A DNA stretch of 64,000 bases, taken from assembly GCF_003286415.2 (NCBI RefSeq), contig NZ_CP043450.1:930001-994000 (forward strand), read 5' to 3'. A program made the position numbers and the translations under genes. Shown here piece by piece: positions 36,193 through 46,646 of the stretch (position 1 is its first letter; every line of letters begins with the position of its first letter). Under the pieces are notes generated by a model, which saw only the letters and a list, made by a program, of their open reading frames with translations, was not told the origin of the DNA and made no database searches. This DNA is from Mucilaginibacter rubeus (GTDB lineage Bacteria > Bacteroidota > Bacteroidia > Sphingobacteriales > Sphingobacteriaceae).

Positions 36193-39156
36193 CTAAATGG
36201 TTTTGAGTTTCTTAATAACTGCATCCGTTTCTTTTTTATATCCGAGTTCAGCTACTTTGTTGCTTTGAATATAGGTGATAAGATCGCCGGCATCCACCTT
36301 GCTTATTCTGGCGATGGGAAGGATCAGGTGTAGCGTACTTTGGGTTTGTTGCTGGTCAAGTAAATTGGATTTGATCGTGTTGATCAACCCATTGATATGC
36401 TTTTCTTCACCGTTCAATGCGATGATCTGCAACATTTCATAATTGTTTTTATACCGGCTGATGTTGTTTTTGTCGGTCATCAGGTCGAAGGCTACGGTTT
36501 GTATGGCGGGTGACAGCCGTTTAAACTCTGCTTCCGGCATTTCGAACAGCAGGTCGGCAACCATTTTATTGGCTCTTTCCTGGCTTAAATGCGCCAATAA
36601 CAGCGGATCGTGATCCGCATTGGCCTTGACCTGATCCAAAATGCGTGATAAATGGGTTTTTAATTCATTATCCGTATAGTCCGGCGTATTTTCCTGCCGG
36701 TATAGGGTCTTCAGCAGGATTGCATTGGTTTCCTCATTGATCACCGAAAAAGCGTTGATTATGCCTTTAAGCGGCGCGGTGTCCAGGTCAGGATATTCTT
36801 CGATCGTGCTGAAGAATTTGGCTTTCACAGCATCTTCGCCATATTGCATGATCAGTTCACTGATCCAGGTCGCCGAATCCGGGTGGGCGCAGGTCAGGCG
36901 ATAACACTCAAATAAATAAGAAACTGTTTCTTCCAGGGTGCCTTCAGGTAAATTGTGCAGGTATTTTTGCATGCCACTGCCGGGTAATCTTTTGGAGGAA
37001 AATAAGGTTTGGTTCAGATTGGTGATCCCATCAAGAATTCGCTGATCAGATTGTAAGTTTCTCGAAGCCGTTAAAATGGGATCGAGCGTATGAATGATCT
37101 GCCATTCGCTGTCCGGCGTATTGTTAATTGAAAATTGCGCGAAGTTAAATAAAGGGAAAAGTAATTGATTTTGCTCAGTTAAATTGGTTGCGAGGTATAG
37201 CCACTGTTCCTTGCTATTGTCATCATCCCAAATCCGCTGTTCTCCATTGACCAGATAGTCATGAATGATCATATCAGTATATAACAGGTCCAGTTGCCAA
37301 CCGCTTAACTCACGATCTAATTTGTCGGTCAGCTTTTTATTGTTCAGGTAACTACGGAAACTCTTGGCGGCGAGGATAAGTTGATCCGTCCCGGCGGCGC
37401 GGTAGTAGGCCTGGTATAATTCAAACTGCGGACTATCGTAAAATTTACTTTCTTCCACGGTAAAGTCATTTAAAGCGGAAGCGATGCCTTTGTCCATAAA
37501 GGACAGTTTTCGCGCCAGCGCATGATTGCTGAAGGCAACCAGGTTAGCCATGTTTTTGGTGTTGCTCACATAAAGGGCAATGTTCTTCCGCAGTTCATTT
37601 TCTAATCGGCCATAATAACTATCACTGAGTTCCGGCGCGTAAGTCAGGAAAATGTAGATATTATCCAGCAGGTTAGGTATATCGGTAGTGGTAAGTTTAT
37701 TCTTTATGGCCTTATTCAGACTAAAGAGGAAAAAATCAATAATGTTCTCTTTGATATACCCGGTTTCCTTCAATATTTCCCCAAGACCGGGAAAATCTTT
37801 AGCCTGGATTGCTGTTAATATCTTCTCCGGCAGGACATCATAATTGTCACTGTTGATCAGGATTTTTTGCAGGGTATCAAAACCCAGGTTCCTTGTACTG
37901 ACAAAGGTGGCATCTAAAAAAGCGGTATATCCATCCGGATCCTTTTCTTTGGTACTGTGATACCCTTCCGTAAGGAAGGTTTCGGGGTTCAGACAAAGCG
38001 CTTTATAATGGTTGTGCCATTCCTCGCGGATGATGAGGAATTTACAAATGGCGATCTCGTTATCTTCAGAGAACTTTTTTCCGTATTTATCTTTCATTAA
38101 TACCATTTCCAGTTGCAGGTTGTTATAAAACTGGATGATCCTGCGCGGGTTTGAGGCATATTCCTTGGCGATGATATTGATGGTGTCCGGTTTGAAACCT
38201 AATTTATTCTGGTTGTTGATCTGTGCTGCGAAATCAAATATCTCTGTCACCTTATAAGGTTTGATCCGGACGGTTACATTGAAATATTTTCGCAGAAACT
38301 CTTCACTTTCTTTTAACCCTTCTGCTTCTCCTTTAAAAATATGTTTCTTCAGTGCGTTGTCATCAACGGGGATCAGGAAAATTACATCCAGTCTGGTATC
38401 GATAAAATTCTTGGTATTGGTTAAAAGCTCGTACGCGGTTTCTTTATGGCAGCGATCAATATTGTCGATAACGATCACCAATTTATCAATATCGCCGTCT
38501 TCCTTGCCTTTAATGAAGTTGGCCATTTTCTCTATGCCGGTTTTCTTTTTAAGCGCTTTGCCGACGATCTCGTTAAAGCATTCTTCAAATTGTTCGGGAG
38601 CAAAAAAGTAAGGCTGTTGCGTGGTGACTTTATATTCATTGAACGCTTTTGAAAAAACATTGGTCAGGAAACCAAGCATGGAAAGGATGATGGCCAGTGT
38701 TATGGTACCGGAACCAGGCGTTTTGAATATCGAATACGCACCCAGAAGCAAAAGTAAAGCGATTACGATCAGTGTCAGGTAGGGCAGGTTGAACTTACGT
38801 GTGACATCGACTTCGGTGTTTTTACTCATGTAAAAGGATGACATTTTCTCTGTCTGTTCCAGTCCGAGCGCGTGCTGTACTTTCAACAGGAACATACGTC
38901 TGAACGAATCGTTAGCGTATTTCCAGGCATCGTAGATCACAAATTGAACACGCTGGTTTTTGTCCTTATCTAATTCTGTAGTTAATGTTTTAATAATGGA
39001 CGATTTACCGGAACCCCATTCACCGAAAAGCCCTATGGTCATAGGCGTGCTCTGCGGCGCGTTCAGGATCAGGTCCTTTAAAGAGTGTGCATAGGATTTG
39101 GTGTGGAGAAGATCTTTTTCATTCAGGTCCACCTCCTTATCGATGAGTAGGTTCAT
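36193..39156 (-). CDS. KAP family P-loop NTPase with membrane segments
   Basis: 987 residues from ATG 39156 (an upstream in-frame ATG at 39186 is less likely). Walker A is FGEWGSGKSS (about residues 44-53). Two transmembrane helices (LTLIVIALLLLLGAYSIF; TITLAIILSMLGFLTNVFS) lie between Walker A and Walker B, a hallmark of KAP NTPases. Walker B is KLVIVIDNIDRC (about 225-236), followed by ELLTNTKNFIDTRLDVIFLI and sensor-like NPRRIIQFYNN. The last 550 residues are helical repeats of unknown family. KAP NTPases sit in several anti-phage contexts; here the neighbour genes are a 120-residue protein and a divergent nuclease. Confidence 0.88.
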   Translation of the reverse strand: MNLLIDKEVDLNEKDLLHTKSYAHSLKDLILNAPQSTPMTIGLFGEWGSGKSSIIKTLTTELDKDKNQRVQFVIYDAWKYANDSFRRMFLLKVQHALGLEQTEKMSSFYMSKNTEVDVTRKFNLPYLTLIVIALLLLLGAYSIFKTPGSGTITLAIILSMLGFLTNVFSKAFNEYKVTTQQPYFFAPEQFEECFNEIVGKALKKKTGIEKMANFIKGKEDGDIDKLVIVIDNIDRCHKETAYELLTNTKNFIDTRLDVIFLIPVDDNALKKHIFKGEAEGLKESEEFLRKYFNVTVRIKPYKVTEIFDFAAQINNQNKLGFKPDTINIIAKEYASNPRRIIQFYNNLQLEMVLMKDKYGKKFSEDNEIAICKFLIIREEWHNHYKALCLNPETFLTEGYHSTKEKDPDGYTAFLDATFVSTRNLGFDTLQKILINSDNYDVLPEKILTAIQAKDFPGLGEILKETGYIKENIIDFFLFSLNKAIKNKLTTTDIPNLLDNIYIFLTYAPELSDSYYGRLENELRKNIALYVSNTKNMANLVAFSNHALARKLSFMDKGIASALNDFTVEESKFYDSPQFELYQAYYRAAGTDQLILAAKSFRSYLNNKKLTDKLDRELSGWQLDLLYTDMIIHDYLVNGEQRIWDDDNSKEQWLYLATNLTEQNQLLFPLFNFAQFSINNTPDSEWQIIHTLDPILTASRNLQSDQRILDGITNLNQTLFSSKRLPGSGMQKYLHNLPEGTLEETVSYLFECYRLTCAHPDSATWISELIMQYGEDAVKAKFFSTIEEYPDLDTAPLKGIINAFSVINEETNAILLKTLYRQENTPDYTDNELKTHLSRILDQVKANADHDPLLLAHLSQERANKMVADLLFEMPEAEFKRLSPAIQTVAFDLMTDKNNISRYKNNYEMLQIIALNGEEKHINGLINTIKSNLLDQQQTQSTLHLILPIARISKVDAGDLITYIQSNKVAELGYKKETDAVIKKLKTI

Positions 39157-39310
39157 AAATGTGCAGTAGGGTTTAGAAATTGGCAAAACGAATATACGAG
39201 TGTTTGACCTATTTTTGAGCAGGCTTAGTTATTGTCTTCAAAAAAATAAAGATCATTTAATGGCCTTTTCGGATATTTAAGGGATTTAATATACCAAATA
39301 AACGATCATA

Positions 39311-40177
39311 GTGGCTAAAAATACAGAGCGGGTCGCGTACCTGATTATTAATAAAGAGGACTTTAAACGTAAAGTTGCAGATCGGTTGGCCATTGGCCAG
39401 GAATTCCTGACGCGTAAGATTTCGGATTTGGACGGAAAGGATAAATGCTGGAAGGAGTTCATGGATTGGGATCATTACAATCTGGAAATGATCAAGCAAG
39501 CTTTTGAATATCCTGATAATGTTTACGGTGAAGAATACAAGCGTCATACAGGTGCTCCCGGTGCCTATTTCGGGGGATCATATACACCGCCATCCTTCGA
39601 AGAGTCGCTTGAAAACATACGCAAAGAGATGGGGTACCAGGTATCGAAGCTGAAGCGTTTTGGAGATAAGATCGAATTATTGCGGGTTAAGCCCGGTTCG
39701 ACAATTCTGGTAGAGGCATCTCAACTGGACAATTTGTTGCGCTTGCTGAAAAGGTTTCATAAGGTTGTACAGGAATTGCGTGATCGCCGGGCGGATCGGG
39801 AACCTGTTTTGATCGTCGATGAATATGATGTACAATACGTTTTAAAGGCGCTGTTGAAGCTGTATTTTAACGATGTACGACCAGAGGAGTTTTCACCAAG
39901 TCATGCGGGCGCCAACACACGGATCGACTTTGTTCTTAAGGAGGAAGGTATTGTGCTGGAAACCAAGATGACCCATGAAAGGCTAAAAGCGAAGGCGTTG
40001 GGCGAAGAATTATTAATTGATATCGGACGATATAAAAACTATCCGGATTGCACTGATCTGGTCATCTTTATATATGATAAGGGCGATCACATTATCAATA
40101 AACAAGGATTTGCAGCCGACCTGGAACAGCAATCGACTCCCGGATTTAAAGTATCAGTGGTGATTATACCGGACTAA
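39311..40177 (+). CDS. PD-(D/E)XK nuclease-like protein (DpnII/MboI-like C-domain)
   Basis: 288 residues starting at GTG 39311. The C-terminal domain has the PD-(D/E)XK residues E171 (DEYDVQY), D206 (TRIDFVL), and E217/K219 (LETKM), then the conserved run ALGEELLIDIGRYKNYPDCT and DLVIFIYDKGDHIINKQGFA. It resembles REase-like domains attached to defence proteins (recalled family: REase_DpnII-MboI). The N-terminal 165 residues include EFMDWDHYNLEMIKQAFEY and may act as a sensor or partner domain. It is divergent from the KAP gene with a 154-base gap, so a shared promoter region is likely. Confidence 0.8.
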   Translation: MAKNTERVAYLIINKEDFKRKVADRLAIGQEFLTRKISDLDGKDKCWKEFMDWDHYNLEMIKQAFEYPDNVYGEEYKRHTGAPGAYFGGSYTPPSFEESLENIRKEMGYQVSKLKRFGDKIELLRVKPGSTILVEASQLDNLLRLLKRFHKVVQELRDRRADREPVLIVDEYDVQYVLKALLKLYFNDVRPEEFSPSHAGANTRIDFVLKEEGIVLETKMTHERLKAKALGEELLIDIGRYKNYPDCTDLVIFIYDKGDHIINKQGFAADLEQQSTPGFKVSVVIIPD

Positions 40178-40752: not shown

Positions 40753-41346
40753 ATGCACATCAACATTTTAGCGGAAGAAAAATTCTCTTATTACCACCGG
40801 CATTATAATATCTCGGTGAACCAGGCGGTCAATCATAGCACTTATCTGCGGTTGGCCTGTACAGAAAACCGTAGCGGTGAATGGGAAACACAGACCATGC
40901 GCTTTTTTGAGGGCGATATCGGGCGGTTTATCGAGTCGCTGAACTCGGTGTTTCGCACGGCGGCGTATCGCACGGATCTTGATAGGAAGGGAAATTTGAC
41001 GGCATCGCCGGAGCATATAAAAGGCATCAAAAGCTGGGCTGCCAGTGAACGTCCCCGGGAGAAACTGATGGAGCAAGGCAGGGAAGTATTGAGTGATGCG
41101 GAGTTGCTGGCGATGCTGATCTGTGCTGGGCTGCCGGGCCTGACGGCAGTCGATCTGGCGGAACAGGTACTGGCGGTAGCGGGCAATGACCTGAAGCGGT
41201 TGGCCGCGTTGAAGGTGGAAGACCTGATGACCATACGGGGCATTGGACACGCGCGGGCTTTGTCGGTCATTTCGGCGATGGAGCTGGCGGTCCGACTGGC
41301 GGCGCGGGAACAGCCTGTACAGTTCTTGAAATTGATCCGGACATGA
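40753..41346 (+). CDS. RadC N-terminal domain protein lacking the JAB/MPN domain
   Basis: 197 residues. The C-terminal half (about 95-190) matches the RadC/UPF0758 helix-hairpin-helix domain: SERPREKLMEQGREVLSDAE, LLAMLICAGLPG and IRGIGHARALSVISAMELAV. The metallopeptidase-like part with its HxH...D residues, normal for RadC, is absent and the protein ends LKLIRT. The first 90 residues (HINILAEEKFSYYHRHYNIS) are an unrelated module. RadC-type proteins are common in mobile elements. The next gene starts within its stop codon (ATGA). Confidence 0.75.
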   Translation: MHINILAEEKFSYYHRHYNISVNQAVNHSTYLRLACTENRSGEWETQTMRFFEGDIGRFIESLNSVFRTAAYRTDLDRKGNLTASPEHIKGIKSWAASERPREKLMEQGREVLSDAELLAMLICAGLPGLTAVDLAEQVLAVAGNDLKRLAALKVEDLMTIRGIGHARALSVISAMELAVRLAAREQPVQFLKLIRT

Positions 41347-41684: not shown

Positions 41685-41825
41685 GTCAGCGGTTACAGCC
41701 GCTCCGTTGCACTTCGCCGCTTCACCGCGTTTTCGGCAACATGGCCTCGTACCTCGGCCATTATTGCCTGTTGTTCCCTTTTTTCATTTTAATGAAGCCT
41801 GGTTAACTCATCCAATTTTTCCCCA

Positions 41826-41996
41826 CTGGCTTTTTCGCAAGCAAATTTCTGAACGGCGGCTTGCCTGCCAAGACCTGGCCCTGCGGGTTTGCTGGAAAAA
41901 AATCTTCCCTGCCGCTGCGCGGCGAGGTATTTTTTTCCGCAAAGTCTTGTCCTGCAAGCCGGCCGTGTTCAGGTGAGGGTGCTTACAAAAAGCCAG
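41826..41996. repeat. 171-nt imperfect inverted repeat forming one very long hairpin
   Basis: The region 41685-42148 has no gene. Most of it can fold on itself: outer arms CTGGCTTTTT (41826) and AAAAAGCCAG (ending 41996); next AACGGCGGCTTGC and GCAAGCCGGCCGT; then TTTGCTGGAAAAAAAT and ATTTTTTTCCGCAAAG; closing on GCCGC-TGC-GCGGC (41911-41923). A second short inverted repeat, GAGGG and CCCTC, follows at 42057-42099. Possible roles are an origin of replication or transfer, a structured RNA, or a transcription barrier; none is shown. Confidence 0.75.
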
Positions 41997-42148
41997 CGAG
42001 GCGTATGCCGAACTGCGATTGATAAGCATGACGAATATGGACGCGCAGCAAAAAAGAGGGCCGCCGGGCGGGACGGAAAACAAAGACCGCAGACCCTCAC
42101 AAGGATTAAAAATTGAATTGAGTACAAACCATTTAAAAATTAAAGATC

Positions 42149-42760
42149 ATGGAAACTAAAGATGTAAAAAAAGCAAGTGAAACAACTGCTAACACCAATA
42201 CCAACAAACCCGCTAATAACAATAACATGCGCCCGAGCATTCCGGGAAAGGAGGTCAAAAATGAACCTGCTAAAGATCAAAGCCCTGCTCAAGGTGCGCA
42301 GGCTGCGCCCGGAGTGGAGACCAACGAGGTTAAGGCCGGTTATAGCCCTGCCGAAAATCAGCAACCTGAAAACGTTACGAAACCCGCCGAAACGCAGGCC
42401 GTAGCAGCACAAGCCGAGCAGAGCAAAAAGGAAATTAAAGCCGTGCTGCAGGAACAAAATGTTCGGGGTTTGGAGGATACCGTTAAACTGGTGGAGGTTT
42501 TGGGTAAGAAGATCGCCCAAAAGAATAAGCTGAGCAATACCATTACCAATCTGGACAGTTTCATGGTTACGCAGAACGACGATAAAGACGATGTGGCCGG
42601 GGACAGCAAATTTCAGCGTTGCGAATTGACCATATCGGATGATGACGGCGAAGAATTCACCACCAAAAACCCTTTCATTATCGCCAAAGTGGTCGACATG
42701 GTAAAAGGCCTGTGTATTGAAAAACTGGCCGAGGTGGAAGCTTCTATTGTAATTCCTTAA
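42149..42760 (+). CDS. Unknown element protein with low-complexity N-terminus, 203 aa
   Basis: ATG 42149 starts a Thr/Asn/Ala/Pro-rich disordered N-terminal 90 residues (ETTANTNTNKPANNNNMRPS). The C-terminal 110 residues are ordered: LEDTVKLVEVLGKKIAQKNK, LSNTITNLDSFMVTQNDDKD and a beta segment FQRCELTISDDDGEEF, ending CIEKLAEVEASIVIP. I recall similar proteins in PRTRC-like or DUF932 clusters of Bacteroidota mobile elements but cannot assign a family. It begins a run of short genes ending with DUF932. Confidence 0.6.
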   Translation: METKDVKKASETTANTNTNKPANNNNMRPSIPGKEVKNEPAKDQSPAQGAQAAPGVETNEVKAGYSPAENQQPENVTKPAETQAVAAQAEQSKKEIKAVLQEQNVRGLEDTVKLVEVLGKKIAQKNKLSNTITNLDSFMVTQNDDKDDVAGDSKFQRCELTISDDDGEEFTTKNPFIIAKVVDMVKGLCIEKLAEVEASIVIP

Positions 42761-43137: not shown

Positions 43138-44145
43138 ATGGAAACTTTAAGCAATCAGCATATCAAGCCCAAAGTGTGGCAGATGATCGGTAAAACGATC
43201 AATAAAAATTCGACGAGCGCCGAAGCGATACAACAGGCGGAACTGGATTTCGAGGTATTGAAGCACCCGAACACGCATATCCTGCCAAGTGGCAACCATG
43301 TCATTTCCGACAAAAGTTTTTACACGTTCCGGACGGACACCGAGGCGATTTTGGGCGATAAGATCGGCAGGGACTACAAAGTGGTACAAAATACCCATGC
43401 CTTTGATTTTTTCGACAGCATTGTCGGTGGCCGGGGCGGTATCCAGTATGAAACCGCCGGGGCGCTGGGTTATGGCGAAACGATCTTTATTACGGCCAAA
43501 CTGCCTGGACATATCCGAGTTGGGCGGGATGACCTGATCGACCAGTACCTTTTTCTGACCTCGACCCATGACGGTATGGGTTGTATTAATATCGCTTTTA
43601 CCCCGGTGCGGATTTGGTGCAGCAATACTTTAAACGCCGCTTTGAAAAATTGCAGCAATTGTATCAAAATCCGTCATACCGCCAGTGCCGAGGAAAAACT
43701 GAAAAGCGCACATACGATGTTAGGCCTGTCAGACCAGTTGGCGACTGAATTGTCGGCGATATTCAACCGCTGGACACGCGTCAAAATTACCGATCCGCAG
43801 GTGAAACGGCTGATACAACTGGCAATAGTGCCGAATAAGGAAACTTACGAAAAGCTGAAAACGGGCAAAGAGGATGAATTATCGAGCCATTACAATAATA
43901 TGGTGAGCAGCGTTTTCGATTATGCCATGACCAGCCCGACCCAGCAGGAGAATACGACCCGTGGCACGTTGTTCGGGGCGTACAACTGTATTACGGGCTA
44001 CTTTCAGAATGTTCGCAATTTCAGGGATGAGGAAAGCAAGTTTAAATCCATCATGTACGGTACAGGATTGCAAAGAGGGCAGACCGCTTTTGACCTGTGT
44101 TCGGATTTTGCCAGGCAGGGCAATGCAGCTTTAGTCCTGAATTAA
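43138..44145 (+). CDS. DUF932 family phage/plasmid-like protein
   Basis: 335 residues, normal for DUF932. Typical content includes the segment TFRTDTEAILGDKIGRDYKV, then VQNTHAFDFFDSIVGGRGGI, ALGYGETIFITAKLPGHIRV, DQYLFLTSTHDGMGCINIAF and TPVRIWCSNTLNAALKN. DUF932 proteins are common on plasmids, phages and integrative elements of Bacteroidota; their biochemical role is not settled. A hairpin terminator follows directly. Confidence 0.9.
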   Translation: METLSNQHIKPKVWQMIGKTINKNSTSAEAIQQAELDFEVLKHPNTHILPSGNHVISDKSFYTFRTDTEAILGDKIGRDYKVVQNTHAFDFFDSIVGGRGGIQYETAGALGYGETIFITAKLPGHIRVGRDDLIDQYLFLTSTHDGMGCINIAFTPVRIWCSNTLNAALKNCSNCIKIRHTASAEEKLKSAHTMLGLSDQLATELSAIFNRWTRVKITDPQVKRLIQLAIVPNKETYEKLKTGKEDELSSHYNNMVSSVFDYAMTSPTQQENTTRGTLFGAYNCITGYFQNVRNFRDEESKFKSIMYGTGLQRGQTAFDLCSDFARQGNAALVLN

Positions 44146-44962: not shown

Positions 44963-46192
44963 TCAACCTATTAGATGGCGTTTGGTAATTAATTGGATAA
45001 TATCGTCGCTGACTTTATTATCAGTAAGTTTGGCATAATGTTGTGTCTGTTTAATCGATGAATGTCCCAGTATTTTGGAAACTGTTTCTATGGGAACTCC
45101 ATGACTCAATGTAACCGTAGTAGCAAATGTGTGCCTTGCGATATGGAAGGTAAGCGGTTTATCTATATCACAAGTATCAGCTATTTCTTTCAGATAAGAA
45201 TTCATCTTTTGGTTGCTTAAAATAGGCAGGAGTAATCCGCTTACAACACATCTTGGATGCGCTTTATATTTCTCAACGATGGCTAGGGCCTCTGGCATGA
45301 GGGGCATTCTTGTCGAAGCGCCGGTTTTCTGCCGATTTGTAAAGATCCATAGCATTTTATCGATGCCGATATGGAGTTCATCTGTCCGTAATTTTTGGAC
45401 ATCGGCATAAGAGAGACCAGTGTAGCAACTAAAAATGAAAATGTCCCTTACGCTTTGTAATCTTTCGTTTTTAAAATTTTTGGTGGCAATGGCATTTAAT
45501 TCATGCTCGGTTAAAGCGTGCCGCTGAACAGGCTTTTTAGTGAATTTGAAGTTTGCGAAGGGATCAGATGACAGCCATTTGTTTTTAACCGCAATTAAAA
45601 CAATCTTTTTAAAGTTTGACAGATATTTCATGGTTGAGTTATGGTTGCATTTTTGAATGCCCTTCAGCCAGAAATCAAATTCCGCTATCGTTTCATGATT
45701 CAGTTTTCTGATGTCAAGATCTTCAATACCGTATTTCCATTTAAGGAAGCTTCTTGTGTGCTCCAATGTTGTGGCGTATCGCTTGATGGTATTGCTTGCA
45801 AATTCCTTCCCTTCAAGTGCTTTCAATTGTTGGTTATGCTTGTTAAATACTTCAATGATTGTCTTTTTATCTTCATCGGCACCTGTCATATTCTTTTTGA
45901 TGGCCTCCGCTGTTAGTTCTTTATCAGTTTCCATCAGTCGCCGTTTTGCCTGGTAGACCTGCTGTGTAAGCGTATCCAGAAAGGCGTTTAATTCCTTCGT
46001 CGTCTCTTTGCTACCGGTTGACCGTCCAGTCTTTGGACTCCAGGTAGAGGTGTGGCATTTTCTTTTGGTAGATAGCTCACTGGATTTCCCATCAACTGTA
46101 ATTCTCAGGTAGATAGGATAAATACCATTTGGGCTGTTTTTGGGTTTGCGCATAAAGAACATTAACCCGAAGCTTTTTTCCAACATAATCAT
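44963..46192 (-). CDS. Tyrosine recombinase/integrase
   Basis: 409 residues with an arm-binding N-domain (GIYPIYLRITVDGKSSELST), a SAM-like core-binding domain (about 110-215) and a catalytic domain. Catalytic residues seen: Lys289 in RQKTGAS, His350 and Arg353 in HIARH, His377 in LGHSS and Tyr386 in QTQHYAKL. The usual first Arg is replaced by Ser261 (TGLSYADV), as known for the CTnDOT integrase IntDOT. It reads away from tRNA-Leu, 245 bases upstream, so it is probably the integrase of the island. ATG 46192 or 46186 is the start. Confidence 0.92.
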   Translation of the reverse strand: MIMLEKSFGLMFFMRKPKNSPNGIYPIYLRITVDGKSSELSTKRKCHTSTWSPKTGRSTGSKETTKELNAFLDTLTQQVYQAKRRLMETDKELTAEAIKKNMTGADEDKKTIIEVFNKHNQQLKALEGKEFASNTIKRYATTLEHTRSFLKWKYGIEDLDIRKLNHETIAEFDFWLKGIQKCNHNSTMKYLSNFKKIVLIAVKNKWLSSDPFANFKFTKKPVQRHALTEHELNAIATKNFKNERLQSVRDIFIFSCYTGLSYADVQKLRTDELHIGIDKMLWIFTNRQKTGASTRMPLMPEALAIVEKYKAHPRCVVSGLLLPILSNQKMNSYLKEIADTCDIDKPLTFHIARHTFATTVTLSHGVPIETVSKILGHSSIKQTQHYAKLTDNKVSDDIIQLITKRHLIG

Positions 46193-46436: not shown

Positions 46437-46521
46437 TACTCAGAGCGGGAATCGAACCCGCACTCCGTTTACGGGAACAGGATTTTAAGTCCTGCGTGTC
46501 TACCAGTTCCACCATCTGAGC
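46437..46521 (-). tRNA. tRNA-Leu (anticodon UAA)
   Basis: An 85-nt class II tRNA on the minus strand. The acceptor stem GCTCAGA pairs with TCTGAGT, the D-arm starts TGGTGGAACTGGTAGACACG, the anticodon loop is CTTAAAA (anticodon TAA), a long variable arm (TTCCCGTAAACGGAGT) follows, and the T-loop is GGTTCGATTCC. CCA is not encoded. Its 3' end points to the integrase, as expected of an integration site. Confidence 0.95.
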
Positions 46522-46537
46522 AGGTGTCTAACCTTTT

Positions 46538-46572
46538 AAAAATAAAACCCTTCTTTCAATCAGAAGGGCTTT
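46538..46572 (-). terminator. Terminator between tRNA-Gly and tRNA-Leu
   Basis: On the minus strand the hairpin AGCCCTTCT-GATTGAA-AGAAGGGTT is followed by a T-rich run. It lies just downstream of tRNA-Gly, so the two tRNAs may be separate transcripts. Confidence 0.7.
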
Positions 46573-46573
46573 G

Positions 46574-46646
<73 letters not shown>

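Follow-up and report, generated by a model that had tools for sequence, protein, structure and literature searches.

What is the role of a hairpin of more than 150 nt that lies in a conjugation-type element of Mucilaginibacter rubeus, between a RadC-like gene and a DUF932 gene cluster? The window analysed here (the whole stretch, 64,000 nt in length) comes from a 7.6-Mb single-contig genome, and an initial annotation of it had put forward a transfer origin, a replication origin or a structured RNA as possible roles for the hairpin. The intergenic gap occupies 41685-42148, the 464 nt that had been described, and its only open reading frames of at least 80 aa are an 89-aa plus-strand and a 91-aa minus-strand frame, TTG start. 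It is flanked by the RadC-like gene with its small-ORF partner on one side and, on the other, by the gene at 42149 and then the DUF932 gene:

40753-41346, plus strand: RadC-like gene, UPF0758 N-terminal part only
41821-42001, minus strand: the hairpin, proposed from its folding and conserved pairing to be active when the minus strand is single-stranded
42149-42760, plus strand: first downstream gene, with no match in Pfam or NCBIfam; its family comes first downstream in 39 of 109 copies
43138-44145, plus strand: DUF932 gene
44963-46192, minus strand: tyrosine recombinase adjoining two tRNA genes (46437-46646)

On folding, the 171-base hairpin was found at 41826-41996, as annotated. As RNA, this segment reaches -79.3 kcal/mol (plus strand, z -5.5) and -84.0 kcal/mol (minus strand, z -7.1), with none of 200 shuffles equalling either value; the segment 41820-42002 folded as single-stranded DNA gives -49.4 (z -5.5) for the plus and -57.4 (z -7.1) for the minus strand. 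The perfect tip GCCGC-TGC-GCGGC was located at 41911-41923, and the base extends to approximately 41821-42001 with 15-nt arms that are 87% complementary. Interpretation as a terminator only was rejected, the GC-stem tip with T-runs on both strands being one part of a hairpin of more than 150 nt with a conserved outer stem. The hairpin is single-copy in its own genome, where the remaining DNA matches span 19-40 nt with E-values of 0.15 or worse and a covariance model recovers one place, plus a weak opposite-strand match there; a MITE or other repeat was rejected on this single-copy status.

The element carries families of the conjugation type (RteC, DUF4134, TraG, TraJ and TraM), a resemblance to CTnDOT-type conjugative transposons, from which it differs in that no PF03432 relaxase lies within 65 kb of the window hairpin. 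Because of this lack, the window copy may be defective or may need help in trans. Two further genes of the element are likely defence cargo, namely a KAP-family NTPase gene (36193-39186, minus strand) and a DpnII/MboI-type restriction endonuclease gene (39311-40177, plus strand).

The initial annotation had named absence of conserved pairing in related elements as the result that would refute it, and a covariation check on relatives, set beforehand, found the pairing to be conserved. In an alignment of 26 sequences, 91.3% of cells are paired, two-sided changes occur in 79 cells as compared with 31.7 in shuffles, and the covariation score is 0.321 against 0.120 in shuffled and at most 0.119 in slid alignments. 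The pairing is maintained by compensatory change. Conserved pairing, in an element that bears conjugation genes, makes a role at a single-stranded stage plausible. Read on the plus strand, the core opens with CAAG and the side hairpin GCCC-TGC-GGGT; a variable tip follows between an A-tract and a T-tract, and CTTG closes the core, the A-tract and T-tract being invariant in all 26 rows of this alignment (A1). In the window these elements, together with the boxes proposed for the 5' arm, are:

41842-41849, minus strand: proposed -7 box 5'-GAAATTTG-3', which agrees with TAnnTTTG at five of the six bases that this consensus specifies; the central AAATT stays open when the minus strand folds
41869-41872, minus strand: proposed -33 element CTTG, which reads CAAG on the opposite strand and is separated from the -7 box by a distance of 19 nt
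41878-41888, plus strand: conserved side hairpin GCCC-TGC-GGGT, 5' arm
41895-41903, plus strand: A-tract pairing with the T-tract at 41929-41937, possibly an UP-like element
41911-41923, plus strand: variable tip
41946-41949, plus strand: CTTG of the 3' arm, which pairs with CAAG

Two tip types occur intermixed in close relatives (alignment A1, window 41904-41928), namely ATCTTCC...GGTATT and ATCTCCAC...GTAGTATT. Conservation of the flanks in the window's class is higher on the gene side (0.72, then 0.56) than on the far side (0.51, then 0.35), and it is mixed in the class associated with DUF6943.

Relatives of the hairpin are widespread. They were detected by DNA search in 34 of 149 genomes of the genus, and by the covariance model, built from the 26 sequences, in 79 of 201 genomes of the family (15 of 23 genera) and 33 of 394 Bacteroidota genomes (19 of 171 genera), the own genome being included each time and no genome giving more than five covariance-model matches; the three genome samples overlap, and the figures are lower bounds because stricter filters were applied in searches of more than 40 genomes. 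A scan of named genomes for the core pattern gave 59 stretches, from Mucilaginibacter, Pedobacter, Flavobacterium, Lutibacter, Marivirga, Saprospiraceae, Cyclobacteriaceae and Bacteroidales, with one record labelled Alphaproteobacteria; some of these copies, for example L064, are without the hairpin fold. For detailed comparison, 137 chosen loci yielded 167 matches, reduced to 146 on dropping 21 overlapping second matches and finally to 122 non-redundant copies, and counts over this family are inflated by shared ancestry. In three loci a second, weaker hairpin match lies about 1.1-1.7 kb upstream on the same strand (L056:1148-1272, L071:6471-6588 and L087:57-174).

Using blastn, the hairpin gave three weak matches among 72,556 plasmids and one among 50,697 phage records, and an SSB-class copy gave no match to the plasmids. 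Such counts understate membership, since the covariance model detects copies in a plasmid of B. fragilis (L096, 36.9 bits) and in the phage record matched by blastn (L095, an unverified faecal contig of 7.2 kb, 39.9 bits). A strong member (L094:197-364, 65.5 bits), recovered by the core-pattern scan, resides in a contig from a viral collection that encodes a terminase, a lysozyme and an integrase along with a portal match below its cut-off. The hairpin family is not confined to conjugative elements, as this strong copy in a phage-like contig indicates, which lowers the odds of the promoter reading developed below.

The 5' arm of the hairpin also holds a recurrent motif. The primary sigma factor of Bacteroidota recognises TAnnTTTG at -7 and TTTG near -33, according to the accessible text of two reports (PMC7366714, PMC2483708). 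In many copies CAAAnnTA, the reverse complement of the -7 consensus, is found just outside the core on this arm. Of the 122 copies, 52 have the exact TAnnTTTG in the minus-strand sequence of the 5' arm, with 5.0 expected and a maximum of 10 in 200 shuffles, whereas the plus-strand version is present in 0 of 122 copies and the 3' arm holds it in 1 of 120. Only 3 of the 39 copies of the window's class have the exact box. The distance from the -7 box to CAAG, obtained for 44 of the 52 exact copies, is 19-23 in 29 copies, 15 in five, 32-37 in eight, and 8 and 17 in one each. In the fold, pairing is 0.09-0.31 at five of the box positions in the 41 copies of the window's sequence type, with flanks at about 0.86-0.93, and this opening is much weaker in the 52 exact-box copies, where pairing across the box is about 0.46-0.85. 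As a check on the consensus in the host, 153 regions from 464 kb (400 kb of host genome and the window) contained TAnnTTTG 27 times in sense and 11 times in antisense orientation; in the same sample GAnnTTTG showed no sense enrichment (7 vs 10) and no -33 peak was seen. In 208 regions of the fetched loci, TAnnTTTG occurred 17 times in sense and 16 times in antisense orientation.

The two strands are not equivalent in folding. Since 242 control segments showed the same lean (186 vs 49), raw strand differences were discounted and the comparison was repeated with shuffles controlling for composition. So controlled, the minus strand is the better-folding one in 108 of 122 copies, by a mean of -2.9 kcal/mol, and is so in every class (37/39, 14/16, 11/13 and 46/54); the first 60 eligible upstream segments, used as the fold control, are also minus-leaning (40/60, mean -1.1).

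Gene orientation was compared on the two sides of the hairpin. Amongst the 110 of 122 copies that are flanked on either side by 900 nt or more, one has no downstream gene, and in 94 of the remaining 109 the first downstream gene is co-oriented, being opposite in 15; open reading frames were called crudely, and some first genes overlap the hairpin and are possibly spurious. By homology, this first gene belongs to the family of the 42149 gene in 39 cases, to DUF6943 in 16, to SSB in 11 and to DUF932 and DUF6266 in two each. A scan of ten further first genes returned ArdA, a RadC domain, PcfK, AbiEii and a D-Ala ligase domain once each, and five matched nothing. In one genome (G621) the hairpin sits between an integrase gene and a series encoding SSB, DUF932, PRTRC E, an uncharacterised protein, PRTRC B and ThiF. 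A block of more than 7.3 kb, starting just before this integrase gene, is common to four places in G621 (L169, L170, L171 and L172) at 99.9% identity or higher, and these blocks are a recent multiplication of one element. Copies of the DUF6943 class are found in islands without a known relaxase (none in G205), one near a TssF gene and one near an integrase. A recurrent island of this kind (L132:5710-10693, with relatives L133, L040 and L090) comprises about 1 kb of mostly non-coding DNA, the hairpin and the DUF6943 gene, followed by variable cargo (TIR-domain and DUF2971 proteins in L132) and then by opposite-strand genes for a DUF5675-like and an approximately 252-aa protein.

The direction of transfer may be gauged from the relaxase. 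A PF03432 relaxase gene was found within 65 kb of 24 of 65 hairpins (41 genomes), with none near the other 41, the window's included; in 21 of the 24 the nearest one is on the same strand (p 0.0003). Transfer genes conventionally enter the recipient last, and if they do so here, it follows from this orientation that the minus strand would be the one transferred.

We consider that the hairpin is best explained, with a probability of roughly 0.55, as a predicted Frpo-like single-stranded-DNA (ssDNA) promoter of a CTnDOT-type integrative and conjugative element (ICE), and probably also as a site for priming the second strand. The element would enter the recipient as a single minus strand, and this strand would fold. 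The fold would rebuild a promoter for the primary sigma factor: the stem would hold the -33 element, on the side of the tip, and a pre-opened bubble would contain or adjoin the -7 box, on the side of the base, with the A-tract at the position of an UP element. RNA polymerase would then start near the base and exit along the 5' flank, using the same strand as template, and the geometry points to the following start area:

41982-41989, plus strand: predicted start of plus-sense RNA made from the folded minus strand

The downstream genes would thus be transcribed into plus-sense RNA at a stage when the second strand has yet to be made, an RNA that in relatives would cover the genes for SSB, DUF932, ArdA and PRTRC proteins, while in duplex DNA the promoter would fire leftward, away from these genes. 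It is proposed more tentatively, at somewhat less than even odds, that the relatives form a phylum-wide Bacteroidota class of ssDNA promoters with -33/-7 boxes and, in some of them, a pre-melted -7 box, which would fire only on the unpaired transferred strand, so that SSB, DUF932, ArdA and PRTRC genes would be expressed early. What favours the promoter reading is the conserved hairpin, the recurrence of the -7 box on the minus strand, the better folding of that strand, the co-orientation of downstream genes, the same-strand relaxases and a design like that of Frpo. Points against it are the -7 box of the window, which is one base off, the scarcity of the exact box in the window's class, the weaker bubble in exact-box copies, the variable distance to CAAG, the host sample with neither sense enrichment of GAnnTTTG nor a -33 peak, the minus-lean of the control segments, the 15 opposite downstream genes, the DUF6943-class islands lacking a known relaxase, the distance of more than 65 kb that any relaxase must have from the window copy, and the phage-like copy.

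Known systems offer useful comparisons. The Frpo (ssi-type) ssDNA promoter of the F plasmid was reportedly described by Masai and Arai in 1997. In Frpo a single strand folds and thereby rebuilds -10/-35 boxes upstream of leading genes including ssb (PMC9849209, PMC11541004, accessible text), and leading regions typically contain genes for SSB and for anti-restriction functions (PMC11541004, accessible text). The hairpin resembles Frpo1 and Frpo2 of the F plasmid leading region, as that design is described, in being a long stable stem-loop of one strand (minus-strand DNA in the window) with candidate promoter boxes in the stem. It shares with Frpo an AT-rich stretch beyond the -35-type box at the UP position, where an UP function would be expected, and a place upstream of SSB and other leading-region-type genes in the family; in the window itself a gene without an assigned function comes first and DUF932 second. 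As in Frpo, copies in Bacteroidota sometimes come in pairs a few kb apart (4.9 kb in G496 and 6.7 kb in G169). In contrast to Frpo, the Bacteroidota hairpin has candidate boxes of the -33/-7 type rather than TTGACA/TATAAT, possesses a conserved side hairpin and an A/T stem core, and lies mostly in chromosomal elements. Because the window's boxes agree only in part and the activity is predicted, the hairpin is a candidate rather than an established member of the Frpo group.

A structured RNA, whether a plus-strand leader ahead of the downstream genes or a small RNA of the minus strand such as a 6S-like promoter mimic, would account for the covarying conserved fold, its fixed place upstream of co-oriented genes and the conserved gene-side flank of the window's class, and is nevertheless unlikely. 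Within this part of the initial suggestion, the leader is disfavoured because the opposite strand is the better folder in most copies, and the recurrent sigma box points instead to a promoter on the single minus strand. Against a minus-strand RNA, the histogram of minus-strand -7 boxes is without a pile-up to the right of the hairpin. What is kept in two different genera-level classes is a sigma box and not an RNA motif. An RNA described in Rfam was rejected, there being no family match to the hairpin: only tRNA matches reach the gathering score, and a relaxed search adds four chance-level matches (E 4.5-9).

The origin part of that suggestion fares better in one of its forms, a second-strand (primer) origin being compatible with the data. 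A single-strand origin (sso) that primes second-strand synthesis and drives no gene expression would follow the same strand logic and suit the relaxase orientation, and RNA polymerase reads sso elements as folded single strands (PMC4595007, accessible text). We regard an sso alone as rather improbable: it leaves the regular place upstream of co-oriented SSB, ArdA and similar genes unexplained, and it overlaps with the preferred ssDNA-promoter reading, as Frpo does both. The sso1 of ICEBs1 is likewise an ICE-borne single-strand fold, priming by polymerase being a general model for many such origins; it lies just downstream of the relaxase gene and consists of three stem-loops (both from the accessible text of PMC4595007), whereas the Bacteroidota hairpin is one long hairpin upstream of operons and far from the relaxase.

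Distinctly improbable is a conventional minus-strand promoter that works in duplex DNA and fires leftward to produce, for example, a non-coding or antisense RNA, with the inverted repeat acting in regulation. The -33/-7 boxes would work in duplex DNA too, and in the DUF6943 class the mostly non-coding DNA of about 1 kb on the left is conserved; against this, there is no consistent leftward target, since the gene on that side is plus in 61, minus in 45 and absent in four of 110 copies, and the left flank of the window's class is poorly conserved.

Least credible is a DNA site cut or recombined by proteins (an oriT, a transposon end or a MITE), for which nearby conjugation genes, outer arms resembling terminal repeats and several copies in some genomes could be cited, given that the recurrent place upstream of certain genes, the single copy in the own genome and the four G621 copies travelling inside shared blocks argue otherwise, and that the hairpin is not adjacent to the relaxase gene, which where present is 6.8-64 kb away (24 cases), a distance on which identity with oriT was rejected. 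Judged by the relaxase distances of the 65 cases, nothing marks the hairpin as an oriT, and no oriT was located.

The ssDNA-promoter reading also has to be placed against the literature. A 2024 survey mapped thousands of Frpo-type promoters using known Frpo/ssi sequences as queries and, for four islands, TTGACA/TATAAT boxes, and its main text contains no word beginning with Bacteroid (PMC11541004). In a literature search with bioRxiv and most subscription papers outside its scope, the terms 'ssDNA promoter' and 'single-stranded DNA promoter' were not found together with Bacteroid- among the matches listed; some of these carry both a word beginning with 'frpo' and Bacteroid-.

If the hairpin is indeed an ssDNA promoter, conjugative elements of Bacteroidota would use a Frpo-type mechanism adapted to their own RNA polymerase. 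One could then tell from the hairpin which genes are expressed first in a new host, which would help in the search for anti-defence genes and in understanding the role of DUF932 and PRTRC genes. It would also offer an answer to the priming of transferred ICE DNA, which the ICEBs1 paper of 2015 called 'virtually unknown' (PMC4595007, accessible text), and it would imply that the DUF6943 islands, which bear the same hairpin, also pass through a single-stranded stage.
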